DNA of 64,000 bases from Hirsutella rhossiliensis (Eukaryota; Ascomycota; Sordariomycetes; Hypocreales; Ophiocordycipitaceae). The translations under genes were made by a program, and so were the position numbers. Below the pieces are notes generated by a model, which was not told where the DNA came from, made no database searches, and saw nothing but the letters and a program-made list of their open reading frames with translations. The DNA lies in assembly GCF_020360975.1 (NCBI RefSeq), contig NW_025408673.1, forward strand, positions 1,364,001 to 1,428,000. Direction: 5' to 3'. Of this stretch, positions 5,667 to 64,000 are shown piece after piece (within the stretch, counting starts at the first letter, position 1; every line of letters starts with the position of its first letter).

Positions 5667-6152
5667 TATTATAAAGCGTAGCTTAATTTCGTAGTTCTTA
5701 AAGATATCCCTTAGTAAGAGGGACTAAGGAAGCTAAAAACACCTAGTATAAAAGAAGGAAGAAGGAGCTAAAAAGAGGTATAAAAAGGAGGGTAGGAGTA
5801 TAAAGGGAAGTAAAAGTAGCTATAGCTTCTTATAGAGGTAGTAAGAGATAAGACGGATATACTAGTAACGGCTAGAAAAGAAGGGAAAAACTAGTAAAAA
5901 GCTTAGTAGTTAAAAGGATATTAATAGCTTCTTTAAGTAGGATCTTCTTTATTAATTAAAATACTAGATAGGTATAAAGAGGGGCGTTAAATAAAGGAAA
6001 GAAAGAGAATTAAGGTAATATAATAATTACTCCCCTACCTTTATTAATGCCCCTATAAGAATTAAATCTCTCTCCCTTACCTATCCGACCCCTTACTTTT
6101 AATTTTACCTTTATATATTTTATATATACTTCTTATATCTCTCTTTATAAGA
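5667..6152 (+). repeat. 5' LTR of Copia-A
   Basis: It aligns along its whole 486 bp with the 3' LTR at 11472-11957. The differences I see are chiefly C-to-T and G-to-A in CA/TG contexts, with some CG sites also changed. The first bases, tattataaagcg, correspond to tatcgcgaagcg in the right LTR and to a TGTCG start in the better preserved copy at 41037-41514. Confidence 0.92.
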
Positions 6153-6169
6153 GTTATAGGCCTAGGAGG
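6153..6169 (+). promoter_or_regulatory. Primer-binding site, initiator tRNA-Met half molecule
   Basis: The sequence gttataggcctaggagg directly follows the LTR. Other copies read gttataagcc at the same point. Allowing for RIP G-to-A, this is complementary to the anticodon arm of initiator tRNA-Met (CAU in the middle), which is known to prime Copia and Ty5 elements as a half-tRNA. The assignment to tRNA-Met is from knowledge of that arm; the host tRNA is not in this window. Confidence 0.75.
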
Positions 6170-6199
6170 AATAGAATTCCTATATATTCCGGCTGCTAT

Positions 6200-7650
6200 A
6201 AAAGGTACCTTTCTTATATCCCTTATAGCTCCCTTTTACCCCTCTTACTAAAAAAGCTAATTTTTAACTAACTTTTCTACCCTTCCCTTATAATAATATT
6301 AAAAAATAACTCTATTATCCCTATAGTCTATAAGACGATTTTTATAAAGCCTTAAGATTAGTATAAGTAGTTAAAGGAGCTATAGGCTTATATAGATACA
6401 ACTATCTATAATTTAGTCTTCTTTAATAAGTAGGACCCTCTTAAGCCCCCTCTTTATCCTAGGGTAATAGAATTTATAAAGGGAGCTTCCCTCTTCTCTA
6501 AGCTAACCTCCGTATAATAGAGAGCTTTTTCTACTACCTGAGGTAACTATAAGAGTTATCGTAAGGAATACCTTTATAAGATAAAGCTACTAACTACTAC
6601 TTATATAGTAATAACGGAATCCGTTAGTACTATAAAGCTAATCTCTTTTTAAGAGGAAGAGACTCCTAAGTAGTAGCTTTTAAAGCTTAAGACCTCGATA
6701 GCTCCCTTAAGGGGCTATATAACTAACTATATTAAGAAGACTTATATAGTATACCTAGGAGCTTTTTTTACTAGGAACCTACTAGCTTCTTTATAGCTAG
6801 CTAAGTAAGAAGAAATTCTTAAGGAAGCTAACTAATACTTCCTTATAAAAGCTCTTTCTAGCTAGTAGCTATAGGATATATTTCTCCTAATAAAGCCTAT
6901 TAGTAACGGTTACTCGACTATCTTTTAAGAAGCTAGCTAGGAACTAAATAAAGAGGCTATTAAAGTATAATAGTAAGTAGTCTTATTCCTTTATAGCTAG
7001 TACTTAACCTAGATAGTTTAACCTATAGCTATCGTAGCCCCTATTACTACGGCCCCCGCTGCTGCTACTACGGCTGTTGCTCCTTTAGCTCCTTCTCCCT
7101 TAAGAGCCTTAACCCCGTCTTTAATAGCTGCCCCGGTCCTAGCTCCGCCTCTTACTCTAGTCCCGGCCCCGGTCCCGTTAATTAGACCGGCCTAACTAGT
7201 CCCTTAATAGACCTTTTAGTCCGTTAGTCGAAAAATTAAGGAACTAGTTAAAATCGAACCTCTTTATTAAAATTAGTAATAAGGGGTAAAAAGGGGGGGT
7301 TTTTAAGCAAACCTTTTAAAAAGGGACGAGGACTCCTTAAAGAAATAATATATAAGGAGGAATCGACCTACCTACTAAGTATATAAAAATCCTTATTAGC
7401 TAGAAGACTACTAGTAGGTATTTAAGGAAAACCGACTTAAAGGAATTAACCCTTTAAAGAGGCTATAAGAAATAGTATAATAGTCTCTTAAGGAGGACCC
7501 CTTATTATAGAAGAAGATAGATAAGATTTAGGTTACTAAGAAATAGTAATTAACGCTACTACTATAAATTTAAGAAATAATTATTAGTATAGTAAATCCG
7601 GCCTTTATCTTCCCTACGGATTAATAAAGCTAAGACTAACTATTAAGACC
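6200..7650 (+). pseudogene. Copia-A gag, RIP-dead
   Basis: This is the region between the primer site and the protease. It has no open frame after RIP. A stretch near 7020-7200 reads as an Ala/Pro-rich linker (gcc, gct, ccg and ccc codons), and the region recurs in the gag pieces at 28524-29545, 45700-46775, 47390-47700 and 63312-64000. I could not identify a zinc knuckle with confidence because TGY (Cys) codons become TAY (Tyr). Boundaries are approximate. Confidence 0.7.
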
Positions 7651-7659
7651 CTCTAACTA

Positions 7660-10600
7660 TCCCCTATAAAAATTAGTAATCCTTAACTTTAGTAATTACC
7701 TTAATATCTATAATATACTCTTATAATTCCGGTCCTTTAAGAAGGCATAGAGGGAATACCTTATTACCGGAGACTTAACTATATAGATAAAGGGATATAA
7801 AAGGGTAAATTTCACGATAAAATTACCTAACGGGTCTATATAAACTCTTCGACGAAAAAGGGTAGCTTTTTACCCTCGATTTTTAATAAGCCTAATTTCC
7901 TTCTACCCTCTTAAGAGAAAGGAATCTTTTAGGATATAACGTTTAAGCCTATAAGGCTAGTTTAAAAGAATTAGACTATTAGGCTTATTAAGGAGAAATT
8001 CGGTTAATTTATTCTTAAATTCCGACCTATCCTTAGGAAGGAATCTCTTAAGAAGTTAGCTTTCCTTACTTAAAGGAGGGTAGGTTTAAAGGACCCTCTT
8101 TTAGTAGCCTTAGGAGATAGCCTTCTTTAGCACGCACGACTTAGTTACCTAGGCCCCCTAGCTTAATATAAGCTAGGCTAATAATAGGGCGTACGAATAA
8201 GGGGCCTAAAGATAGTTAAATATAAATACTACGGCTAAGGAAAGACTAAGAGACGAATTTCTAAACGAACCCCTTTATAGCTAAACTAACTATATAAGGA
8301 AATTTAGGTAGACTAAACTAACGTCTCTAAGGACTAAGAAAGCTTTATTAAGGTAATGTTTTTTATAGACGCTTTTTTAGGGATAGTTTTCCCTTATTTC
8401 TTATAGACCTACCTAAGTAAGTATAACTAGTCTACCCTCTAGGACTTTATTAACTATATAAAATCCTACTTTAGCTATAGGGTAAAGAAGATACGGTTTA
8501 ATAGAGAGCTATTTATAAAGGATATCTTAAATTAGCTTTAAAAAGGGGCATTTTACCCCTCCTATTAGCACTAAATACCTAGGCCTAGAATAGAGGGGTA
8601 GAAAGATTAGGGGGTGCTATAATAGAAAGGGCCTATACGATAAGACTTACTATAAAGCTTCCTTATAATCTTTAAAGGGAAGTTATTAAGACCGCCTATT
8701 ACCTATAGAACCGGACCCCTAAAGGGACTACTTAAGGAATAGACTAGAAATCCCCCCTTAAGCTCTTTACGAAGAAGAGGGCCTCGCTAGCTTACCTTCG
8801 TGCCTATAGCTATAAGGTATATATAATAACTACTAATATATAGCTAAAAAGGAAGAAGAAAAGAAAGCTTAATCCTAGAGCCTTTATTAGTTACCTTATT
8901 AGTTATAATTCTATAAATATCTTCCGGATTTAGATTTCTCTTTTATAGAAGGTTATTTTAACTAAGGATATAATTCTCGACGAATCTAGCTTTTTCGATA
9001 GTAAGAGGGATTAATAGCCCCTCTTACTCTTATAAAGTTAGCTAATTTAAAAGATCTAAATTCCCCTTCCTTATAGTCTTAAGAAGAGGTCCTAGATAAG
9101 GAAATAGAAGAAGAAACCGATATTAAAGTAGTTAAGGATAACGCTAACTTTAAAGAAAAGGAAGCTATTAGATTAGATAATCTAAATAAAGAAGGAGACT
9201 ATAAGAAAGTAATAGAGCTAGAATACGCCTACCTCCCTACGCCTCCTCTTATAAAATAAGAAGAAGATCTAAAAGTAGCTTTTTTAGTTAGTCTTCCTAT
9301 CTTAACCCCTAAGGGGGTAAGAAAGGCACCTCTCTTAAAGGATTACCTAGCTGCTTTTTTATCCCTGCTTTAAGAAGTAAAGGAAGGTATAGGGCCCGAT
9401 ATAGTTACTAAAGAAGACTAACCTCTCCCTTATTTCGATCGTTTTTCCGACTTCTATCTAATACTAATCAAAGAAGGTTCTTATAGAGCGTTTATAATAG
9501 GCCGGCTTTTTAAGCTACTATTAGTAAGGAAGGTATATAAAAGAGACCTCCTAGACCTACTAGTAAACTAAAAGCAGCTAGAAAGACACTATTTTAAAAA
9601 CTAGTTTTTCTAGGCCTAGAAAGACTACCTAGCCTTATATAAATAGATAGGGTCTTTTAAAGAGGTCCTTAAGGAAAGGGTAAGAGGAAAATAGGTCCTT
9701 AGCTATAAGTAGGTCTTTATCTAAAAAACTAATAAATATAGCTTCCTTTAGAAGTATAAAGCCCGGCTAGTTATTTATAGTAATTAATAGGAAAAAGGGG
9801 ATCTACCTACTAAGGCAACTACCTTAGTAAGGATATCTTTTCGGACTCTTATAGCTATAGTAGTAGAATTTAACCTTAAACTTAACTAGATAGATATAGT
9901 TAACGCCTTTATTAACTGCTTACTTAAGGAAGAAGAAGTTATCTATATATACCTTCTACTAAGCTTTTAATAGATAGGAAAGGTTCTATAGCTTAGGAAA
10001 GCTCTATACGGACTATAAAGATTACCCCTTCTTTAGTAATAGTATTTAATAGGTTCCCTTAAAGCCCTAGGCTTTAAGAAAGTCCCTAAGGAACTATATA
10101 TAATATAAAAGGGTAAAATTATAGTCTTATTCTACGTTAATAATATTATCTAGGCTTACTTAAAAGAAGAAGAAGCTACTACTAAGGAGGCTATACGATG
10201 CCTATAATAAAGGTATAAGATAATTAAGTTAAGGGAGCTAAAGTAGTTCCTAGGGATATAAATCCTTTAGAATAAGTCTTAACGGACTATCTAGCTTACC
10301 TAAGACGCCTATATCGATAAGGTCGCTTATAAATTCCTCCCTAATTCCCTTAATAGGAAGCTTCCCTTTATACCTATATTAAATAAAGAGCTTTTACCTA
10401 ATCTATCCTTTTAAGCTAAGGAGTAAGAGAAATACTAATATTAATAGAAGGTAGGCTTCCTGCTTTTTTTTAGCTATTTCTACTAGACTAGATATCTCTT
10501 TTACGGTCTCCTAGCTAGCTAGGTATAACTAGAATCCTAGCCCTAGGCTTTAAGAAGTAGTAGATAGAGCTATCCTTTATCTTTATTTAATAAGATTATA

Positions 10601-11455
10601 TAGTCTACGCCTAGGAGGGTAGGAAAGGAAGAAATTAGCTACTAAAATCTTCCTTTATTAAGTAATTCGTCCTTTATAGATAATTCCTTAGATAAAAAGA
10701 GCTTATAAGGGTATATTATATCCCTTTTTAAAGGAACTATTACTTAAAGAGCTTTAAAGCAAGCTACCGTTACGACTTTTAGTATAAAGGTAGAGCTACT
10801 AGCTCTTTTAAAAGTATTAAAAGAAGCGATTTTCCTTAGCCGGCTATTAATATCTCTACGACTATAAATTCCGACCCTATTAGCTATAAAATGCGATAAT
10901 ATATAGACTATACGAATTCTTATAGAAAATAGTAAGCTATCGACCTAGCTATAGTATATCGATATCTACTAGTATTAGTTACGCTAAGAAGTCTAAAGGG
11001 GACTTATTTCTATTTATTAAGTACTAACGGCATCGATAAAAGCCGACGGTATTACGAAGCCCCTACCGAAGTAGAAGCTAGCTATCTTTTTATAGTAAAT
11101 TAGGCTAGAAGACGTTTAAGAGAAGCTGTCCTTAGAGGCCCGCCTTAAGAGTCTATAAGAGGAGCTAATAGTATATATAAGAAGGTAACGTCTATAGCCG
11201 AAGAAGAAGGAAGAGGTTTTCCCTTTAGAGGGCCCCCTATTTTAATTAGGTTTTTCCCTTTTAAAGAAGGCCCCCTTTCTTATAGGACTTTCCCCTCTTT
11301 AGGCCCCTATTCCTTAAGTAGGTCTAAAAGAGCCTAGGGACCTAAAAGGGCCCCTACTTTCCTCGAGTAAATAGAGAAGTATAGAGCTAAGAACCTCCTC
11401 TATACGCTTACTAGCCCGAAGCCGTATTAGCTATGCCCTTACTATAAGGGCAGGC
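7660..11455 (+). pseudogene. Copia-A pol (protease, integrase, reverse transcriptase, RNase H), RIP-dead
   Basis: Landmarks can be read through the stops. A protease site is at about 7685-7700, where DSG-like codons became Asn-Phe-Ser. The GAG-pre-integrase block His-Ala-Arg-Leu-Ser-x-Leu-Gly-Pro-Leu-Ala is near 8130. A zinc-finger end, Cys-like then Gly-x-Gly-Lys-Thr-Lys-Arg-Arg, is near 8225-8260. Integrase core sequence follows to about 9100. Reverse transcriptase carries a Phe-Tyr-Val-Asn-Asn box (from YVDD) near 10130-10145, and an RNase H region lies at about 10740-11100. No product can be made. Boundaries are approximate. Confidence 0.8.
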
Positions 11456-11460
11456 TATAG

Positions 11461-11471
11461 CTAAGGGGGTA
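11461..11471 (+). promoter_or_regulatory. Polypurine tract of Copia-A
   Basis: The sequence ctaagggggta abuts the 3' LTR. The equivalent site in the minus-strand copy at 41515 reads ctaagggggtg. The same tract borders the LTR of the miniature element at 52451-52847, which links the two families. Confidence 0.75.
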
Positions 11472-11957
11472 TATCGCGAAGCGTGGCCTAATTTCGCAGT
11501 TCTCGGAGATATCCCTTAGTAAGAGGGACTAAGGAAGCTAAAAACACCTAGTATAGAAGAAGGAAGAAGGAGCTAAAAAGAGGTGCAGAAAGGAGGGTAG
11601 GGGCATAAGGGGAAGCAGAAGTGGCGATGGCTTCCTATAGAGGTGGCGAGAGATAAGACGGATATGCCGGCAACGGCTAGAAAAGAAGGGAAAAACCGGC
11701 AAAAAGCTCGGTAGCTAAAAGGACATTAGTAGCTTCTTTAAGCAGGATTTTCTTTGTTAATTGAGATGCTAGATAGGTATAAAGAGGGGCGTTGGATAGA
11801 GGAAAGAAGGAGAATCAAGGCAATATAATAATCACTCCCCTACCTCTATTGCTGCCCCCGCAAGAATCAAATCTCTCTGCCCTACCTGTCCGACCCCTTA
11901 CTTCTAATTTCACCTTCGTGCATTTTACATGCACTTCTCGTATCTCTCTTCGCGAGA
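11472..11957 (+). repeat. 3' LTR of Copia-A, largely spared by RIP
   Basis: This 486-bp LTR still contains many CA and TG dinucleotides, unlike its partner at 5667-6152. It is therefore the best guide to the original LTR. A TATA-type motif, tataaag, lies at 11778-11784 and fits plus-strand transcription of the element. It ends in cgcgaga and is followed by the duplication atacc. Confidence 0.92.
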
Positions 11958-37593: not shown

Positions 37594-39460
37594 ATAAGCT
37601 ATAACCCTAGGCCTTCTAGCGAGCTTAGGAAAGTTAGTAGAAGGGATAAAGGTTATAACGTTATAGGCCGGATACTATATAGGGATATAGCTATTATCGA
37701 TCTTATAGAGGTAAGGCTCTTATAATAAGATAAGGTCCGCTTTTATTTTTAGGGCCTACTCTAAGATCGATAGGTTAGCTATTTCCTACTTATTAGTATT
37801 ATACTATATAATACTAATAGGGTTATAGTTAGGCCTAGGGGGCCTAAGGGGCTCTAAGGGCCTTATAGGTATAAGGGGGCTAAGGCTATTAAGTATTAGT
37901 TACTCCTTTATAGACTCCGTATTATACTTTATTAGTTATAAAGTGCTCTCCTTTATAGTTATAGTATTAGACCTTAAAGTAAGAGTAGCCTTAGCTAGCC
38001 TTATAGCTAGGGTAGTTATAGTCCTTAGTTAAGTGCTTTTCTAGGTAAAAGGTATACTTAATAGGCTGCTAGTAAGTCTAAGGGTTATAGCTAAAGGAAA
38101 GGCACCTATAGTACTATATATATATAGTATATTCCTTATAGGCCTTAACTTAAATCTATTAACCTATTATATAGAGGCCTTTTTTCTAGTATTTAGCCCC
38201 TATAGCCTTTAAAGGGACTATAAAAACGACCTATCCTACCTTCTACGTTAAGCCTAGGGTGCCTAGCTACCTAGGCTGCCTTAGGATATCGATCCCGCTA
38301 AAGGTTTTAGCTTCTATAGCGAAGATACCGAAGATAGGGGTCTCTAGGAAGTTAGGGACGCTTTAAGCTACTAGCTTAGTCTAGCTAGTAAGAAGGTCGG
38401 CCGATTTAATAGGTAGCTCCTTAAGGTATAGGGACTACTTCTCCTACTACTTTAAAAGCTTCTTTATTATATATAAGGCCTTTATCGTTATAACTATATT
38501 ATATTTATTTAAGGTTAATAAAGCTAATATAGCTAGTTCCCTTATAGCTTTATTAAGCTTATTATAAAGCGTAATAAGGTTAATAGTTAGCGTTAGCGAT
38601 TCTTTCTTTAGCTTTAAGATAAGTTAAAAGTCCTCTTTTACGTTCCTCTTAGCTAAGGCCTTAGCTAGGTCTTAGCTAGGGCTTTCGCTAGAGCCTTAGC
38701 CGGGGCCTTAGCTAGGGCCTTAAGCGCTTTCTTTATAGTAACCTTAGCCTACGAGCTCGCTTTAAGGTTTCCTTAGGTAGCCCTAGGCTACTAAGCGGCC
38801 TTAGGCTAGTATAAGGGCTATTATAGGGGCTGTTAGTAGTCTAGGGTCCTTATAGCTGCCTTCTTAAGCCCTTTTATAAGGGTCTTATAAAAGGGTTCGA
38901 TTTTTTAAGCTTCCTTAAGGGCTTAAAGGGCCTACTAAAGGAAGCCCTAGGCCTAGTTCCTAGGGAAGGGGTACTACGGCTAGGGCTAGGTCTACTATAA
39001 GTATTAGAACGTAGGTCGGATAGGTATAGGGCTAATAAGGCTATTAAGTATAGCTCTCTTTTACCTCTTTACTTACTTTAAGGGCTAGTTAAGCTAAAAG
39101 TAGCTAGCTTAAGGTAGGGCTAGGCTAGGCTTAAAGAGGCCAGTCTTTAGTATAGGCTAGGTATTATCTTTTATCTTAATATCCTCTAGGTCCTAGTCTT
39201 AGGTCCTAGACCTTTCTTCTAGGGTCCTTAGAAGGCGTTAGCCTTTTAAAGCTTCTTTTAAGCGGGCCCTAGCCTCTAAGGTACTTATTTCGACCCTTAA
39301 GTTAAGGGGGTTAAAGTTAAAGGGACCCTCCTTATATCTAAGCTAGGGTCCTAAGTTAGGTCTAGGCTTAAGCTTATTAGCGGGGGGGGGGGTATATACC
39401 CTTAGTTAGCGAGGGTAATAAAGAGTTTTCTACCTATATAGGGGAGAACCTCGCTTAATT
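37594..39460 (-). mobile_element. 5' portion of a Tad-like LINE (minus strand), RIP-dead
   Basis: It is the reverse complement of the LINE piece at 15241-17770, from the end of ORF1 at left to the 5' untranslated region at right. The zinc-knuckle block of ORF1 lies at about 37960-38140. This copy lacks the LTR3 insertion and so shows the empty site. The 5' limit is uncertain; 39461-39613 may be more 5' untranslated region. Confidence 0.72.
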
Positions 39461-52354: not shown

Positions 52355-52450
52355 AGAGTATTATTATTTACCTTAGAGTAAATCTCTATTTAGCTTAGAT
52401 TATCTAGAAATCCTCCTTTTTAATTAAATAATATATATCTTAGTTATTAT

Positions 52451-52548
52451 TATCGCGAAGACTATTACGCTATATAGGCAAAAGTAGAACGCGCTCCGAT
52501 AAGTGCGCTGCAATTAATATATATAACTAATAACCGCGTTTTCCGATA
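52451..52548 (-). repeat. Miniature element LTR (3' on minus strand)
   Basis: This 98-bp repeat differs from its partner at only a few sites, G/A or C/T. Its tatcgcgaag end is identical to the end of the Copia-A LTR at 11472-11481. Confidence 0.88.
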
Positions 52549-52732
52549 CACCCCCTTAGGGATCGCGGCTCCGCCGGGATTCCTAGACCTAAGACCACGA
52601 CGCGGGAGTCGAACACTAAGCACCGCGCCTATTACCTAGGGAAATCTAAGAGAGAGAGGGGTACACGGCTATCTACGGGTATTACCCCGCAACGCGTAGT
52701 TACTAGAAGTTATAAGGGGTAGTTTGCTACCC

Positions 52733-52749
52733 CCTCCCGGGCTTATAAC
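52733..52749 (-). promoter_or_regulatory. Primer-binding site of the miniature element
   Basis: On the minus strand it reads gttataagcccgggagg, directly after the LTR. The Copia-A sites at 28524 and 34040 read gttataagcc followed by gaggagg or taggagg. It is the same half initiator tRNA-Met site. Confidence 0.78.
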
Positions 52750-52847
52750 TATCGCGAAGACTATTACGCTACGTAGGTAAAAGTAGAACGCGCTCCGATA
52801 GGTGCGCTATAATTAATATATATAACTAATAACCGCGTTTTCCGATA
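52750..52847 (-). repeat. Miniature element LTR (5' on minus strand)
   Basis: This is the partner of 52451-52548, also 98 bp. It is more RIPped than its partner at the ca/tg sites near 52780 and 52810. It is followed by the duplication attat. Confidence 0.88.
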
Positions 52848-53131
52848 ATTATTATAATATCTTACTTATTTTTAAGTCTTATTTTATATATCGCGCTTAT
52901 CTTATATAAGGGATAAACCCCTATAGTAGGGCCCCTCCTTAAGGGGGACCCCTCCCTTACTAGCTTAGGCGCTTAAGTATACTTTTCTAAAGTAAGAGCT
53001 CTCTAGAAATTTCTAAGGATTTTCTATTAAGAGATAGCTAATATAAAGTACTAGCTAGTAATATCTAGGTACTTTTACTTTAATAGGTTAAGCTAAATAG
53101 AGATTTACTTTAAGGTAAATAGTAATACTTT

Positions 53132-53850: not shown

Positions 53851-54050
53851 TGTGGACAGGCTCTTCACTGCAGTGAGGTTATTCGAACTGGTTCAATTGG
53901 TTATATCTTGTGTAACTAGGGAAACGTGTCCCATACAAACTGTGTGCAAAGACCTTCCTCCCTGTGTCTCACCTCTTACTCGCACGTGACTAGCGCGGTC
54001 GATTAGTTATACGTGCGCGATCGGTGCCTAGTGCACAGGTGGATCCAACA
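53851..54050 (-). repeat. 3' LTR of Copia-3 (200 bp)
   Basis: It is identical to 59678-59876 except for one extra G (ggg at 53919-53921). It contains the palindromes cactgcagtg and cacgtg. TG...CA ends are intact. Confidence 0.95.
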
Positions 54051-54328
54051 CTGGAACCTCTTTCTAAATCGATGATCGCGCACTAATCAATCCACCAAAA
54101 CACACCAAACACAGCGAATTAAGATGAGATAGGAAAAACACGAACAAGAACACCAACAAACTCCTACCACGATGCATCACTATGTTGGATAGTGTGCTCT
54201 GACTGTAGCTCTCCTCCCCACACTGGGTGTGTTCTGCCACACGCCATCATGGGCCGCATTTCGAGCGCCGGATGCGCTAGCTGATTCCATCGGTCCCACG
54301 TTGGAATATGGACACGAGGATCTCCTCG
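54051..54328 (-). other. 3' untranslated region of Copia-3
   Basis: It lies between the stop of the RNase H frame and the 3' LTR. No frame is conserved. It holds the possible polypurine tract close to the LTR at about 54060-54070. Confidence 0.7.
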
Positions 54329-55468
54329 TTAATGTGAATGGAATAAAAGAACGACGGTAAAGCAGAAGAAGGGAACGAAAAACCGATTAAATCTCGTCGA
54401 GAATTGTTGTGTTATTGCGATGAACGAATCCTTCCACCTCACGTTTAGCTGATTGTCGCTAATAAACTGCGTGAGGGCGCTGTTTGGTGATGCCTTCGTC
54501 ATAGCATCGGCAGGGTTATCTGCGCCGTTGACCCAACGGATTTCCGCAATATCCCTTGATTCATATGCCTGCCTCAGCGCCATGATATCTATCATGAGTC
54601 GCTTCTCTGTTGTGGTGCCAAGTTTGACGAGGCACTCATAGAGGCTATATGAATCTGTGCAAATGACGAGCGGGATTTGCTTCAGATCAAGGCGTTGTGC
54701 GATCGTATTGACCGTTTGCTTGATCACAAATGCGAGATCGAAGCCCGATGTCAATCCATAGATCTCTGATGCAAGAACGCTTCGAGTAACGCGCTTGCAT
54801 TTAGTTGAGCTCCAATGAAGAATGTTTCCGCGGATGGAAAATGAATCGGTTGATTGCGCGGTCTCATTGGCGATGATAATCACAAAGCCGATTTGAGAGC
54901 TTAAATCCTTATTGTTGGCGAATGATCCATCGGTGAACACAAAGATCTTCGCGCTCTCGAGATCGATGGGTATGTAACATAGGCCACGGTCGGGATTGTT
55001 GATCTGCCATTCAATCCGCTTGTTCAAAGCCTTGAAGTCGGTATTAACGGGCTCTTGGGCTTGTGCCGCAACGGAACAATCGTATGTTGCTTCGGGTTGG
55101 CAAATCGAAGCGATATATGCCCCCGGCGCGTTGAGGAGCATAATCCTGATGCCTACTTGATGCCTGAAGATTGATCTCCTCGAGGTTTTGGGCTTGGCCC
55201 TTCTGCCTGACGATGACACAGCCATGTTGGCCTTAAAGCAGAGTTCTTTCTCCTCGATCTTGAGAAATGCATCTGTGCCAACAATGAATGTGTCATCCGT
55301 TTGCAAGGCCGCGATGCCAAACAGGTCCTTGTCGGCGATGTTGTTTGCCGTGATCAGAAGGCACGGGTCAAACGAAGAGGTTTCCATATTAAGCTTGCGG
55401 CAGTGATGGTCGTGATATGTGTTGAACCAGTGGGCTCCTGCCTCTGCGATGCCATATAGCGGCTTCAC
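54329..55468 (-). pseudogene. Copia-3 reverse transcriptase end and RNase H
   Basis: One 379-codon frame. It opens in the reverse transcriptase K-P-L-Y-G-I box, followed by A-H-W. The catalytic box is Leu-Gln-Thr-Asp-Asp at residues 55-59; fungal Copia elements often have QTDD where Ty1 has YVDD. The RNase H acidic residues are visible: Asp180 in F-T-D-G-S, Glu235 in A-S-E-I-Y-G, Asp272 in C-T-D-S-Y, and Asp in A-D-N-P-A-D-A-M-T-K (317-321). Residues about 82-112 read out of register: the expected connection sequence appears in another frame, which implies two compensating shifts near 55225 and 55120. It ends with a hydrophobic tail. Not functional as it stands. Confidence 0.9.
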
Positions 55469-55980
55469 GATTCGCAGGATTGTTCCTCTGGATATCTTCT
55501 TTTGAGTTCTTGAGGAAGGGCTGCCAGGATGACACGGGCCAGCTTGGTCTGGGATTGTGTGTATGCCATCGTGATGTCTCTGATCATGATGAACATATCC
55601 CGTGTGCAGAGAAACGGTGCTAAGGCCAAGGCCACGCGTTGTGCGGGCCGGCTGATGGTAGGGGCTTGTGTGAGGATCCCACGTTTCCCATCATCATTGT
55701 ATCCTTGCACAACGAGGCGTGATTTCTCGTATGGCGTTGCAGTATTTCTTCCTTAACCTCTCTGACCATTCGTGATTTGAAGACACGATATCCACCATGT
55801 TTATTCGCATCGAATTCTTCGGGTACAATGACCCCAGCGGCGAGGAGGTTCGTGAGCTCGAGTGTGTCGGAAGCTTCAAATGGGAAACCGGTGCTTGTGA
55901 TCTTTCCTTCAGCTCGTAGCCGCTTGGCTAGGCCGAGATGTTCCATTTCTTTTCGAACAAGAAACGCATTAGCTTCATGA
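55465..55980 (-). pseudogene. Copia-3 reverse transcriptase N-terminal part, frame-shifted
   Basis: Two frames cover it. The first (to about 55745) carries the start of the domain, with L-T-N-L-L-A-A-G-V and G-G-Y-R-V-F-K-S-R. The second (55710-55465) carries S-R-L-V-V-Q-G-Y and the catalytic R-D-I-T-M-A-Y-T-Q-S with its Asp. A shift near 55745 joins them, and another near 55480 leads into the QTDD frame. Together with 54329-55468 this makes a complete domain in content, though not in one frame. Confidence 0.85.
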
Positions 55981-56082
55981 TGAACGATAAATTGAACGGG
56001 TGAGCAAACAATAGTGGATTCTGATGTGCCATTTTGTGCAGCATCCTTCCTAGGTCAGCCACGCCTGCGCGGCCTCTTTGGC

Positions 56083-56952
56083 TCAGGGTATTCGAAAGGT
56101 TTGGGTTGGTCTTCTGTGGTAGGAAGAGGAAGAGGTTGTTGAGTTGTGGGTGGAAGGGAAGAGGGTTTTGAAGAGGATGTTGTTGATCGGATTGTGTTGA
56201 GGAAGGAGTGATTGTTGTGTTGATGGGTCTGTGCGGCTAGGGCTAGGGTCGGGTTGCAACTGAGGAAGGAGCGATTCCGGGTGACGATAGTACGGTTGGA
56301 CGCATGTACTGCGAAATTTCGCTGGTCCGTTGTCCAGGTCAACTGCGATTTCCGTATCCGTCACCTCGAGCACTTTATATGGGCCTTGCCATCCGTGCTT
56401 CTCGCGAAATACGCGAACTTCGCTTCCTAGCGCCAGGGATAGGGGCAGGCGCAACGCTGTATCAGGCCCATTACGCGTATTTAACGCGGTCTGAACCTTC
56501 CTCTGGGCGTTGATCTTCCTCAGCTCTGACATCGTTCGCCACACCGCCTTAGCTCTTGCCATTGCGGAAGGTGTAGGCGGCGAATCCATCGTCATTCGAG
56601 GCAGAGCACCGAAGACGAGGAGGGTTGGAACGAGGCCATCCGGACCGGCTGTGTCGTTGACAGCCTTGAAAGCCATTTGAAGGACTTGATCAGGGCTCAC
56701 GGTATCCTTCAGCTCTGCCTTTAATATATCATATGCTCTTCGGACGGGCACATGATACTTCTCAACCTTCCCAACAGCCCAATGTGCTTCCACAGGCACC
56801 TGATGACACGTTATTCCCATCAATTTCGCTTCTGCTTGGAACTCGGCAGCAGCGAAATTCGTGCCTGCGTCATGAGTGATCACATCGGGTGGTCCAAGGT
56901 ATGTATCCATCCAACATTGTTTCAACGCGAGCCACGTTTCCTTGGCCGTCAT
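56083..56952 (-). pseudogene. Copia-3 integrase catalytic core and C-terminal domain
   Basis: This 289-codon frame holds the second and third catalytic residues: Asp28 in T-H-D-A-G-T and Glu64 in V-G-K-V-E-K-Y, spaced exactly D-x35-E as in retroviral-type integrases. Residues about 200-240 form the C-terminal domain with W-x-G-P-Y-K-V-L and a F-R-S-T-x-V-Q-P-Y-Y end. After that the frame turns into a Ser/Pro/Thr-rich stretch that is better continued in a second frame (56342-56055), ending in a basic R-P-R-R-R patch. A shift near 56960 separates it from the first Asp. Confidence 0.9.
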
Positions 56953-57857
56953 GTTGGATAGGAATCTCCTGCCTGATAGGCGGTGGCTTGATCAACAACA
57001 TGGAGGACTGGTCTGCCACCCAATGTCATGACATCAACGATGACTTCGTAATTGAAGTCACAATCATCCTTCAAGCTGAACTTGAACCTTCGTGGCGGGT
57101 CGGATTTCATCTGACAGTAGTGGCAGAACTTCTTGATCATTTCCAGAGCTTCGATTTCCACATCATGGCCAGCCGAATTCAGCAGCTTGTGCAGCCGATA
57201 CACGGATGGATGACCAAAACGCGTGTGGAGGCGCCGCAATTCAGCCTCCGTGAGATATGCCACTGATGCCTCTTGTTTCCGCAAGAAGAACCACGCGTGA
57301 CCCCATCTTCGAATCACTGGAACGCTCACACCATTGCCAACGAGCTCGTTCGTGACGTTATTTAAATATACGCCGAGCCGATCCATATCAGCTAGGCATA
57401 GGAGGAATGGCGTTGGCACGTTGACTATATGAAAATCAACCTCTCCCACTGGTGTGTTCAAGGTGATCACGCCAAGTGGTGTTTCCAATCTTCCTGCACC
57501 AAATCTAACTGGTTCGGGCTTGCGATCATCACGGAATTGGACTGGGGGCATCTCTCGTTGGAGAGCACGCAGTTGTTCGATTCCTCCCGTCGATATGCAT
57601 GCCGCACCTGTGTCCGGCATGATTCCTTGGAACGAGTCTTGAGAGTAACGATCTAGTATGAATTGTGTGGGTTCGTCACTGTTGAATAACTTGATGCCTA
57701 CTGGAGATCCGATGATGGAAAGCTTCGTTGGACAGAAAGGTCGCAGCAGCGTAGAACGATTCATAAGGGTCAGAGGAGTCAGAATCGTCGGATTCCTCGG
57801 TGCTCGAGTCATCCTGATCCTGTGATTCCCCTTCATAGTCAGCCAAGAACATAGCAT
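56949..57857 (-). pseudogene. Copia-3 protease, pre-integrase and integrase start
   Basis: The genuine part of this frame begins near 57720. The aspartic protease site is Asp82-Thr-Gly-Ala at about 57606-57614. The GAG-pre-integrase zinc finger has His211 and His216 with Cys245-x-x-Cys248. The first integrase Asp (I-V-D-V-M-T-L, residue 275) is at about 57035. The first 45 or so residues are out of frame with gag and probably not translated that way. A frame shift near 56960 cuts it from the rest of the core. Confidence 0.9.
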
Positions 57858-57859
57858 AC

Positions 57860-59410
57860 GAACGAGATTGACCGTGGAAGCCTCTCTCGTAGATACTTCT
57901 CTTTGGCTGCTTTTCTCTCGTTTTCAGGATGTCTCGTTGAGAAACAACCTTCCTTGCCGCAAACGTAGCATTTCTTCTTCCAATTTGGCTGACGCCTTTG
58001 TGATTGACCTCTTGTTCCGCCGGAATTTCGCTGAAATTTGCGATCCACGAAGTGCTGATCATGTCCTCTATCCAGGTCTTGGGGATATTGGCCACTGGGT
58101 TGTTCAGATCGTTCATCTTGCATGGCAGATAGCGATGATCGAAGCTGTGATGCCAATCCTCAAATGTAGGTGCGGGAGAGTATATCGCGAGTCGGAATTC
58201 AGGCACACCACGGCACGCCCTGAGCGTTGCATCGATCAGGCCACCTTCGCCGCCAGACTTATCCCCGAGTGCTCTCCTACAGAGCCGCAATTTCGTAAGA
58301 AGGGCCTGGAGGACCTCGTCAGATGACTTACCGGGCATCTCAGCCCGAAGTCGGCTGAAGGTGAGGGTGCTCAGTGGGTATGATACATCTTCTGGTTGAT
58401 TTCGGTGTCAAAGTGCTCTTTCATCTTCTGATACATCTCAGCGAAGGTTAAATCAGTGCTGATTTCGTGTAGAAAGAAGGACTGAGCTTCCTTAGCCAGA
58501 ATCGAAGGAAAACACCATGGAATTTAGACGGAGGAATGTTTGCTTGACGGCACACGCTCATGAATTTCCGGATCTTGTCATCGAAGATATCGTATGGTTC
58601 GCCGGTATAGGCTAGTTTCTTGTCCCATATCTTAATGAATCTAATCGTGAGATCGGCCTCAACTTCCTCGTTCTCGAATCGAACAGGTGGAATGCTCGTG
58701 TATGCATCTCGGAAGTTGGTAGTCCGTACGGGGCGTCTGCTGATACCGAGGATTCGCGCCATTGATGCTGAGGCTCTTGCTGAGCGGGTTGATGGGTCTC
58801 AATGATCTGAGGGATTCCGGTTCCGCCGGTCGGGTAATAGTTGGCTGCTGGATTACTACCGGTGCCGGTGACGATATAGCCGCTTTAACAGTTCCTTGGA
58901 GCAGCTTCTGTTTCACCTTATATGCCACGGTGTTTTCAGCAACCTCTTGACCAAGCAACTCGTTCTCATCCCATTCAGGAAGTTCGTTACTTGTTAGAAG
59001 GCCACATAAAGCTCGAGAGATGCTAGAGTTGGCCTTGCCCATATAGATCCCCCTAATTCTGAGAAGCGTCCGGAGTCTTGATCTAAGGCGTGGGTTGATT
59101 AGTTCGAAGTCATCATAGCTCCATCCCGTGAAGTCGTTATACAGATCCCCAAGCAGGGCAATTCCGTGGTTACGTTTATCCACCGTGTATGTTGCCACAC
59201 AGCCTAAGAAGAAGCTGTTGCGGTGGACAAGGGAGGAGCTTTGGGTGATAGGTTCGTTGAGGAAATCCGCGTCGAAATGCCTGATCGGGAGTGAAGGAGC
59301 TCCACGATCGTCAGGTTCCGTTCAACGAGTTGCCTGTCTTCGAGAGACACGTTGGCCGGGGTATCCTGGGCTGTTGCCGGGGCTAGTGCGGCAGATGAAT
59401 TGTCAGACAT
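57860..59410 (-). pseudogene. Copia-3 gag, frame-shifted
   Basis: The likely start is the ATG at 59410 (Met-Ser-Asp-Asn-Ser-Ser), the first Met with Ala/Ser/Thr-rich gag-like sequence after the leader. Gag content can then be followed across frames with shifts near 59279, 58760, 58515, 58380, 58150 and 57880. A nucleocapsid-type zinc knuckle, C-x2-C-x4-C-x4-H, lies at 57929-57970. It has the Cys-Phe-Ser-Thr-x-His form seen in fungal Copia gag instead of the usual CCHC. An acidic Asp/Glu/Ser-rich linker to the protease follows at about 57740-57830. No stop codon disrupts the correct frame; all breaks are shifts. Confidence 0.85.
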
Positions 59411-59677
59411 ATTGACAGGCTGTGTGCTGAGAAACAGGGCACAGGGTGTCAATGAGGTTATCAATGTGCGATAGGGCACGCCTAAGGGTCGCTGATGACA
59501 GCAAAGCTTAGGCACGGTTGGATAACTAGAGTGGGCTCTGATGCAGAGTCTTCGTAGCAATCCGCGCGTTGTAGCAACTATCCTACCGTCAGGAGCTCGC
59601 TTTGCAGAGCGTGACGATAGGTTAGCTCTCTTCCGTCTTGCTGTTCTGTGTCACCTTTGCCGGGCGACACTGATCAG
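59411..59677 (-). other. Leader (5' untranslated region) of Copia-3
   Basis: It lies between the 5' LTR and the gag Met. The LTR is followed on the minus strand by ctgatcagtgtcgcccggc, which includes the palindrome ctgatcag. It does not resemble the tRNA-Met half site or a TGG-type primer site. An upstream in-frame extension to 59560 is open but looks like leader. Confidence 0.6.
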
Positions 59678-59876
59678 TGTGGACAGGCTCTTCACTGCAG
59701 TGAGGTTATTCGAACTGGTTCAATTGGTTATATCTTGTGTAACTAGGAAACGTGTCCCATACAAACTGTGTGCAAAGACCTTCCTCCCTGTGTCTCACCT
59801 CTTACTCGCACGTGACTAGCGCGGTCGATTAGTTATACGTGCGCGATCGGTGCCTAGTGCACAGGTGGATCCAACA
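59678..59876 (-). repeat. 5' LTR of Copia-3 (199 bp)
   Basis: It is identical to 53851-54050 apart from one missing G at 59746-59747. It drives transcription leftward. It is directly followed by the second copy of the 18-bp duplication. Confidence 0.95.
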
Positions 59877-62825: not shown

Positions 62826-63311
62826 TATCGCGAAGTATAGCTTAATTTTATAGTTCTTAGAGATATCCCTTAGTATAAAGGACCTAGGAAGCTAATAATA
62901 CTTAATATAAAAGAAGGAAGAAAGAGCTAAAAAGAGGTATAAAAAGGAGGGTAAGGGTAAGAAGGGAAGTAAAAGTAGCGATAGCTTCTTATAGAGGTAG
63001 CGAGAAATAAGATAGATAAGCTATTAATAGTTAGAAAGGAAGGGAAAAACTAATAAAAGGCTTAGTAGTTAAAAGGATATTAATAGCTTCTTTAAGTAGG
63101 ATCTTCTTTATTAATTATGATACTAAATAAGTATAAAGAAGGGCGTTAAATAAAAGAAAGAATTATAATTAAGGTAATATAATATTTATTCCCTTATTAT
63201 AATTACTACCCTTATAAGATTTAAATATCTTTACCTTACCTATCTAACCCCTTACTTTTAATTCTACCTTTATATATTTTATATATACTTCTTATATCTC
63301 TCTTTAAAAGA
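62826..63311 (+). repeat. 5' LTR of a further Copia-A copy
   Basis: It is 486 bp, the full length, from tatcgcgaag to taaaaga, and heavily RIPped. It is followed by the primer site gttataagcctaagagg at 63312-63328. Confidence 0.88.
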
Positions 63312-64000
63312 GTTATAAGCCTAAGAGGAATAGAATTTCTATACCTTCTAGCTACTATAAAAAGCACCTTTCTTATATCTCTTATAACTTCCTTTTACCC
63401 CTCTTTCTAAAAATGCCGATTTTTAACTAACTTTTCTACCCTTTCCTTATAATAATATCGAAAAACGACTCCTTTACTATCCTTATAATCTATAAGACGA
63501 TTCTTATAAAGCCCTAAGATTAAGATAAGTAGGTAAAGGAGCTATAAGCTCGTAAAAATAGAACTATTTATAATTTAGTTTTCTTTAATAAGTAGGACCC
63601 TCTTAAGCCCCCTCTATATCTTAAGGCAATAAAATTTATAAAGGGAGCTTCTTACTTCTTTAAGCTAACCTTTATATAATAGAGAGCTTTTTCTACTACC
63701 TTATATAACTATAAAAGTTATTATATAGAATACCTTTATAAGATAAAGCTACTAACTACTATATATATAGCGATAATAAAATCTATTAGTATTATAAAGA
63801 TAATCTCTTTTTAAGAGGAAGAGACCCTTAAGTAGTAGCTTTTAAAGCTCGAGACCTTAATAGCTCCCTTAAGGGGCTATATAACTAACTATATTAAGAG
63901 GACCTATATAGTATACCTAGGAGCCTTTTCTACTAAGAACCTACTAGCTTCTTTATAGATAGCTAAGTAAGAAGAGATCCTTAAGGAAGCTAACTAATAT
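63312..64000 (+). pseudogene. Copia-A primer site and gag start, RIP-dead, continues past the window
   Basis: It parallels 6153-6840 of the reference copy. The element presumably continues to the right, outside the window. There is no open frame. Confidence 0.82.

Follow-up and report, generated by a model that had tools for sequence, protein, structure and literature searches.

Composite insertions join a miniature LTR retroelement of Hirsutella rhossiliensis to Copia retrotransposons at a common primer-binding site

Introduction

The identity of a TRIM helper is often a guess from brief common motifs, or no helper is found. A 64,000-nucleotide stretch of the genome of the fungus Hirsutella rhossiliensis (contig NW_025408673.1, positions 1,364,001 to 1,428,000; hereafter the window) contains a 397-bp miniature LTR retroelement and raises the question of which element moves it. 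A preliminary description of the locus had proposed the reverse transcriptase and integrase of a local element, Copia-A, on the basis of a common primer site, a common polypurine tract and a common LTR end. Here we report the anatomy of the miniature element, its relatives in the host genome, and a set of composite insertions in which its sequences are joined to those of Copia elements.

Results and Discussion

Anatomy of the window element

The element occupies positions 52451-52847 of the window on the minus strand, with an interior of 201 bp, and has the following features:

52750..52847, minus strand: 5′ LTR, 98 bp (TATCGG...CTTCGCGATA)
52451..52548, minus strand: 3′ LTR, 98 bp
52733..52749, minus strand: primer-binding site GTTATAAGCCCGGGAGG (un-RIPed form GTTATGAGCCCGGGAGG)
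52549..52559, minus strand: polypurine tract CTAAGGGGGTG, adjoining the 3′ LTR (CTGAGGGGGTG in un-RIPed copies)
52549..52749, minus strand: non-coding interior of the alpha subfamily (GGTAATACCC block)
52706..52740, minus strand: hairpin region near the primer site, from folding
52446..52450, no strand: left target-site duplication attat, 5 bp
52848..52852, no strand: right target-site duplication attat, 5 bp

By all structural features tested, the element is a TRIM. The primer site lies directly 3′ of the 5′ LTR and the purine tract directly 5′ of the 3′ LTR. The two 98-bp LTRs, the attat duplication (ATAAT/ATAAT on the element strand) and the lack of coding capacity noted in the preliminary description are all present, the longest ORF being 52 amino acids. 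The LTRs differ at six positions, by transitions only, in a window that bears a strong RIP signature (index 1.48).

The TRIM family in the host genome

A search of the host assembly (81.8 Mb, 40 contigs) with the 397-bp query returned at least 43 matches, a lower bound because 40 of 245 candidates were scored. Paired LTRs were sought at 43 loci, a non-random sample composed of the window copy, the 33 best matches of this search and nine matches to junction patterns; six loci with one TRIM LTR each (L028, L039, L041, L042, L043 and L046) and the partial locus L048 had been left out beforehand. An LTR pair was obtained at 42 of the 43 loci, L047 giving none because it is a composite. All 42 copies span 387-404 bp, with one disrupted LTR in L022 and in L060. 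Exact 5-bp duplications flank 31 of them, two have one mismatch and nine have two or more, whereas pairing flanks across copies would be expected to give 0.66 exact duplications in 42. The interior opens with GTTAT in every paired copy, a motif that the script sought there. The expectation that a genome search would bring up further copies with intact duplications was therefore borne out and, together with reversed-pattern controls that gave 0 matches for both junctions, the copies and their duplications exclude a chance origin of the match.

Differences between paired LTRs amount to 317 transitions and 38 transversions over the 42 pairs, and 19 of the transversions stem from the two disrupted pairs. 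L029 has identical LTRs within the exact duplication TCCCG; TRIM activity is therefore recent. The un-RIPed LTR reads TGTCGG...CTTCGCGACA; the un-RIPed primer site GTTATGAGCCCGGGAGG is preserved in 10 of the 42 copies, and the un-RIPed tract CTGAGGGGGTG in 11 by the register of the script, with three more in a shifted register. A TRIM of 0.4 kb is near the length limit of RIP known from Neurospora. An escape from RIP through small size was set aside, as the copies are partly RIPed (median index 1.2). Six copies (L029, L032, L038, L059, L062 and L067) with a GC content of about 0.58 and a RIP index near or below zero coexist with strongly RIPed ones. At L016, L049 and L059, the five letters upstream (CGAGA or CGACA) resemble the end of another LTR, as in two-LTR junctions.

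Signals common to the TRIM and Copia-A

Copia-A is represented in the window by the following features:

5674..11950, plus strand: Copia-A copy, RIPed, comparison element (LTRs 5674-6145 and 11472-11950; interior 6153-11471)
62826..63311, plus strand: Copia-A LTR, opening with TATCGCGAAG (primer site GTTATAAGCCTAAGAGG at 63312)

Both the primer site and the tract of the TRIM were found in the local Copia-A, as first described. Once RIP is removed, this agreement is complete for the primer site, which is identical over 17 nt in un-RIPed copies of the two elements, but not for the tract, the TRIM form CTGAGGGGGTG differing from the Copia-A form CTAAGGGGGTG at one of 11 positions. The reported identity of 10 bp at one LTR end did not survive, since it compared opposite ends. 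In the TRIM, TATCGCGAAG stands at the LTR 3′ end, whereas in Copia-A it stands at the 5′ end, and the match is explained by the inverted ends of the Copia-A LTR (TGTCGCGAAG...CTTCGCGAGA). In like orientation, the LTR 3′ ends (CTTCGCGACA in the TRIM, CTTCGCGAGA in Copia-A) match at nine of 10 positions, and TGTCG is common to the 5′ ends. The un-RIPed junctions of LTR end and primer site consist of nine identical bases, one different base and 18 identical bases.

When L032 was compared with the Copia-A LTR plus 400 bp at each interior end, the best matches were the primer site and the tract/LTR start (E 0.006 each); the remaining ones were 8-9 letters long with E above 1, apart from an 11-letter match to this LTR start. 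An origin of the TRIM as a deletion derivative of Copia-A is unsupported, there being no similarity beyond the signals over the LTR and both 400-bp interior ends. Its LTR may derive from another Copia, given locus L065 (see below).

Predicted protein domains place Copia-A in the Copia superfamily, with a Copia-type pol in which the integrase side precedes RVT_2. A gag_pre-integrs domain scored above the cut-off in one of five pieces (E 3e-7), in L073 at about 1.9 kb from the start of the Copia part. In other copies, RVT_2 lies 3.4-3.6 kb downstream of Copia-A junctions, for example at C1:9013317 and C2:7589162 (150 of 1324 candidates scored). Matches to Pol_BBD and SH3_retrovirus were below the cut-off, and no match to the core integrase domain (rve) was obtained for Copia-A.

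Over 13 nt, the un-RIPed primer site is the complement of nucleotides 26-38 of a host tRNA-Met (CAU) in L070. This segment covers the 5′ side of the anticodon stem and the anticodon loop and extends one base beyond; with another host tRNA-Met (L069) the complementarity is 12 nt. A complementarity of 17 nt was rejected on this measurement, and a search for an exact 19-nt tRNA match (pattern CCTCCCGGGCTCATAACCC) found no site. The complementary stretch is internal to tRNA-Met rather than at the tRNA 3′ end, which suggests Copia-type half-tRNA priming by a 5′ tRNA-Met fragment. This putative priming signal resembles the Copia/Ty5 mode, in which a tRNA fragment acts as primer; such a mode has been reported for Helenus TRIMs of fungi as well (PMC10886601). 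ARAGORN also called a tRNA-Thr (agt) at 39114-39212, in a repeat-dense region of the window.

Directly downstream of the primer site is a hairpin with the outer stem CCGGGAG/CTTCCGG and variable inner stems. The outer stem forms in six of eight folded elements, namely the TRIM L032, L063 (of another miniature family, TRIM-B), L066, L054, L065 and the Copia-A of L068. It does not form in L050 (of a further such family, TRIM-C) or in the RIPed window copy, where it is degraded (CTTCTAG) and the inner stem alone folds. Hairpin z scores were −2.7 for L032 and L068, −2.2 for L066 and −0.4 to −1.7 for the other five.

Composites of TRIM and Copia sequences

The 5′ TRIM LTR is missing in six of 40 loci. 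Longer loci revealed four of these (L052, L075, L076 and L077) as composites with Copia-A; the upstream end of L043 consists of Copia-A U5 letters, and L042 carries the LTR of another TRIM. Genome-wide, a Copia-type U5 followed by the primer site and a TRIM-type interior was found at 28 sites (22 exact and six with one mismatch), 15 of which are known from the pattern alone. Among the 13 examined in context, seven have an annotated upstream Copia-A LTR, five the U5 end only, and one (C22, L074) the LTR of another Copia family; at L072 the interior is that of TRIM-B. The arrangement of TRIM U5, primer site and Copia-type interior was found at 20 of 73 sites listed, which is not a rate because the pattern favours the Copia form; at one of the 20 (C11:601868) the last letter differs. 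The remaining listed sites are of miniature type (51, including at least one TRIM-B, and L076) or TRIM-C type (two).

Six composites (L052, L064, L068, L073, L075 and L077) were read whole as TRIM LTR, Copia-A interior, Copia-A LTR, TRIM interior and TRIM LTR. Three more (C13, C16 and C18) were seen at both ends, with 5.83-5.84 kb between the start of the Copia-A interior and the Copia-A U5 end. The survey of duplications covered TRIMs and composites alike and, with the best of one to four boundary candidates taken by the script, all nine TRIM-outer composites have an exact 5-bp duplication (ATAAT, ATTAT, ATTAT, TTAAT, ATAAT, GTAAT, ATAAA, ATATT and ATATT). Each was therefore inserted as one unit.

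Other forms occur as well. L053 is the reciprocal element, with a duplication matching at four of five positions (AGTAT/GGTAT). L056 consists of a Copia-A LTR, a TRIM interior and a TRIM LTR within the exact duplication ATAAT, and L076 of a full Copia-A followed by a TRIM interior and LTR within the exact duplication ATAGT (both by script); the join in L076 lies about 20 bp further inside U5, outside the 28-bp stretch of LTR end and primer site. Over all forms and partners, the duplication is exact in 14 of 15 two-ended composites, the exception being L053, and Copia-A is the partner in 12. This count leaves aside the one-ended composites L022, L043, L072 and a second one in L078, as well as L088, whose left end is rearranged.

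The TRIM-outer composites with Copia-A have the features of template-switching complexes, namely three LTRs, two interiors, outer LTRs that are alike (91-95% identical in the three self-compared composites L052, L064 and L068) and a flanking duplication. At the marker base of the LTR end, six of 11 TRIM-outer composites are of TRIM type on the left and Copia type on the right; four are of Copia type and one of TRIM type on both sides (two of the 11, on C2 and C11, are known from pattern letters alone). What the composites record is a meeting of TRIM and Copia sequences ahead of one integration, and not the identity of the protein that acted.

Further partners and miniature families

Copia-A is not the sole partner. 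L074, in un-RIPed DNA, is a short hybrid like L056, but its Copia LTR is a different one and its duplication, exact by eye, is GACAC. This 275-bp Copia LTR belongs to a young family; with 40 of 132 candidates scored, at least five pairs lie 5.3 kb apart at 96-99% identity to the query. RVT_2 was found inside at least three LTR pairs of this family, one 5.3 kb and two 6.7-7.5 kb apart. Two composites involve a second TRIM family, L047 in the three-LTR form and L078 in the short hybrid form, both with duplications exact by eye, that of L047 within an ATA-rich repeat.

At least two further miniature LTR families, TRIM-B and TRIM-C, have a primer site and tract identical or nearly identical to those of the TRIM. 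TRIM-B copies lie in L063 (about 715-1074), L055 and L072 (7024-7294), and TRIM-C copies in L050 (about 733-1110, duplication ATTTA) and L088 (about 486-785). A Copia-A LTR precedes one TRIM-B (L072, annotated) and one TRIM-C (L088, by eye).

L065 (6300-7090, minus strand) has a Copia gag region behind a TRIM-like LTR of about 95 bp with the same primer site, and may be either an old composite or a Copia whose LTR is of TRIM type. Elsewhere in the genome, with all 31 candidates scored, its gag piece has matches of 69-77% identity that extend over no more than 140 bp. L054 (600-1800) is an un-RIPed Copia relative with an LTR end, CTTCGCGACA, like that of the TRIM and a gag frame that is open by eye; with 40 of 405 candidates scored, a 993-bp query from it returned at least 11 near-full-length matches, itself included, of no less than 84% identity. 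Also in the window, an un-RIPed Copia-like element (53851-59876, minus strand) has 200-bp direct repeats 99.5% identical and a weak gag_pre-integrs match (E 2e-4, below the cut-off). Its flanks have 18 bp in common (TACTAATATTACCTTTAA) instead of a 5-bp duplication, and its ends and primer region are unlike those of Copia-A.

Proposed mechanism and identity of the helper

The simplest reading of the composites is that TRIM and Copia RNAs share particles and that reverse transcriptase jumps at the common primer site. We consider it very probable that the TRIM is packaged, reverse transcribed and integrated by Copia proteins, and that the composites arise in shared particles by a strand jump. 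The TRIM LTR would drive a short non-coding RNA. Its primer site, of Copia type, would accept a 5′ tRNA-Met fragment, and it would also have a purine tract and LTR ends on which a Copia integrase can act. Copia proteins, including those of Copia-A and of the younger 275-bp-LTR family, would package, reverse transcribe and integrate this RNA. A minus strand begun on TRIM RNA would stop at the primer site, which is also that of Copia RNA, pair with the Copia primer site, extend through Copia U5-R, and then move to the 3′ end of Copia, from where the entire element would be copied; the three-LTR form would be closed by plus-strand transfer of the TRIM. If the plus strand began at the Copia tract, the short hybrid with two different LTRs would result. 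A start on Copia RNA would give the reciprocal composite, and a Copia plus-strand transfer with a jump slightly inside U5 the form seen in L076. All of these products would be inserted with 5-bp duplications like normal copies.

The preliminary description had Copia-A itself moving the TRIM. Movement in trans is supported by the composites, indirectly but more strongly than by the cis signals. L074 shows a second Copia partner. Copia-A proteins may have moved the TRIM. It is conceivable, although we rather doubt it, that the main helper is another Copia family and that the Copia-A composites reflect co-packaging only: the TRIM LTR ends in CGACA like that of L054 and unlike the CGAGA of Copia-A, the young 275-bp-LTR family made its TRIM hybrid in un-RIPed DNA, and L065 reads as a Copia with a TRIM-like LTR. 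This alternative has to be set against the predominance of Copia-A, both as partner in the two-ended composites (12 of 15) and as the most frequent interior among the sites listed for this junction (the list covers about 100 of 424).

For the jump step, the main rival is recombination between finished cDNAs, either linear or one-LTR circles, at the common 28 bp, with no jump of reverse transcriptase. A crossover in the stretch of LTR end and primer site would give an equal composite topology, and the marker base in six of the 11 TRIM-outer composites is what a single reciprocal crossover would leave; these six also fit the strand jump directly. The other five fit neither a single reciprocal crossover nor, directly, one jump at the primer site; under a strand jump, the minus strand would need to have run a few bases into U5, or the mismatch to have been resolved the other way. 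At both of its junctions L073 carries the variant CTTCCCGAGA, a CTTCCC variant that is also present in the Copia U5 of L077, again contrary to a crossover. Moreover, 28 bp is short for recombination and ample for strand transfer. We therefore regard a cDNA crossover as unlikely; in that case, too, Copia proteins would serve the TRIM. By either route, the two sequences had come together before they integrated.

Repeated origin of the composites

Several composites are alike in topology and near-equal in length, with a junction spacing of mostly 5.72-5.87 kb, as would be expected if one composite had formed once and then multiplied as a unit. We consider this very improbable. A tree was built in purine/pyrimidine coding from 59 interiors plus 3′ LTRs (43 plain and 16 composite); it omits matches that do not cover the interior from the primer site on, and three further rows (one duplicate and two with the LTR of another TRIM) were dropped. 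On the TRIM part, the test rejects a single clade of composites (delta logL 116, AU p 4.5e-84). The composites are scattered, with 16 changes for 16 composites against a mean of 14.5 in 500 shuffles, a soft count because many rows are near-identical in this coding. Unlike this count, their occurrence in both the alpha and the beta interior subfamilies, which differ by a sequence block, is not soft, and the composites have three different partners. Since no single clade unites them, the composites arose repeatedly. In trees of the Copia pieces they also intermix with ordinary Copia-A, on which we place no weight because these trees are poorly supported.

That neighbouring TRIM and Copia-A copies recombined or nested after integration is scarcely credible, for although the window is dense with Copia-A and TRIMs do insert into Copia-A LTRs (L058 and L067), the exact 5-bp duplication surrounds the whole unit in all two-ended composites except one, and the Copia part of the TRIM-outer form has one LTR, not two.

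Implications for TRIM replication

The genome itself thus records helper and parasite joined before one integration, repeatedly and with more than one Copia family. The question of which element moves this TRIM turns into a sequence search applicable to any assembled genome. The composites also suggest a route for LTR exchange between elements, and the Copia gag behind a TRIM-like LTR in L065 could be a switching product that stayed. As a tentative extension, in which we have less than even confidence, TRIM and autonomous Copia families would form a network tied by a near-identical module of LTR end, primer site and hairpin, in which switching is a regular by-product of TRIM replication and swaps LTRs. 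If this is true, module switching would move promoters along with LTRs between parasites and helpers, and primer-site composites would provide a general way, from sequence only, to name the helper of any TRIM.

Comparison with known systems

The pair of TRIM and helper had been thought to be an undescribed kind of system. As such it is not, because Copia helpers have already been proposed for fungal TRIMs in rusts (Kojima 2024, PMC10886601). In the parts of that paper considered here, Helenus elements are, like ours, short non-coding LTR elements of fungi with 5-bp duplications, their tRNA-iMet anticodon-loop primer site is common with Copia elements, and one helper-like pair has common interior ends. 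Helenus LTRs contain a tRNA-like sequence with A and B boxes, whereas none was found in the LTR or interior of the TRIM family of the window. T-arm-like motifs (GTGTTCGACTCCC and GGGGTTCAATCCCC) can be seen by eye in TRIM interiors, yet no tRNA was found in the TRIM by Infernal (window stretch and four loci) or ARAGORN (nine loci), and a tRNA- or SINE-derived interior was rejected. The sole match of an Rfam search, caiA, was far below the cut-off. Membership in Helenus was dropped because of the Infernal and ARAGORN results. In the same parts of the paper, Helenus helpers are argued from sequence similarity, whereas here TRIM-helper composites were found. In the literature searched, we found no report of such composites, which here are repeated and of several forms.

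Template-switching complexes are also in print. Those of Triticeae, rice and maize (Sabot and Schulman 2007, PMC1950507) have the order LTR-interior-LTR-interior-LTR with 5-bp duplications, attributed to template switching between two packaged RNAs, and resemble our composites as multi-LTR units with such duplications. They join members of one family (Angela, Squiq or Opie), in the R region according to the model, and are rare, with two in about 7 Mb of Triticeae sequence, one in rice and one in maize. Here, in contrast, the primer site is where a TRIM meets a Copia element or a different TRIM, in many insertions of one genome and in several forms. ONSEN likewise has recombinant insertions, formed while co-packaged RNAs were reverse transcribed (Sanchez et al. 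2017, PMC5668417). In the part of the study considered, this recombination is within the same family and no TRIM is treated, unlike the joining of TRIM and Copia here.

For TRIMs of other hosts, a paper on bivalves reports, in the part considered, that no helper was found (PMC6934838). The maize TRIM Wukong is closer to our case, since a Copia helper, Sanzang, was proposed for it from a short common LTR motif of 12 bp and an intermediate element (PMC4528315). One Wukong copy contained a 5.5-kb copia-like sequence, described in the part of that source considered as an insertion, whereas the TRIM and Copia sequences of the composites reported here were joined before integration.
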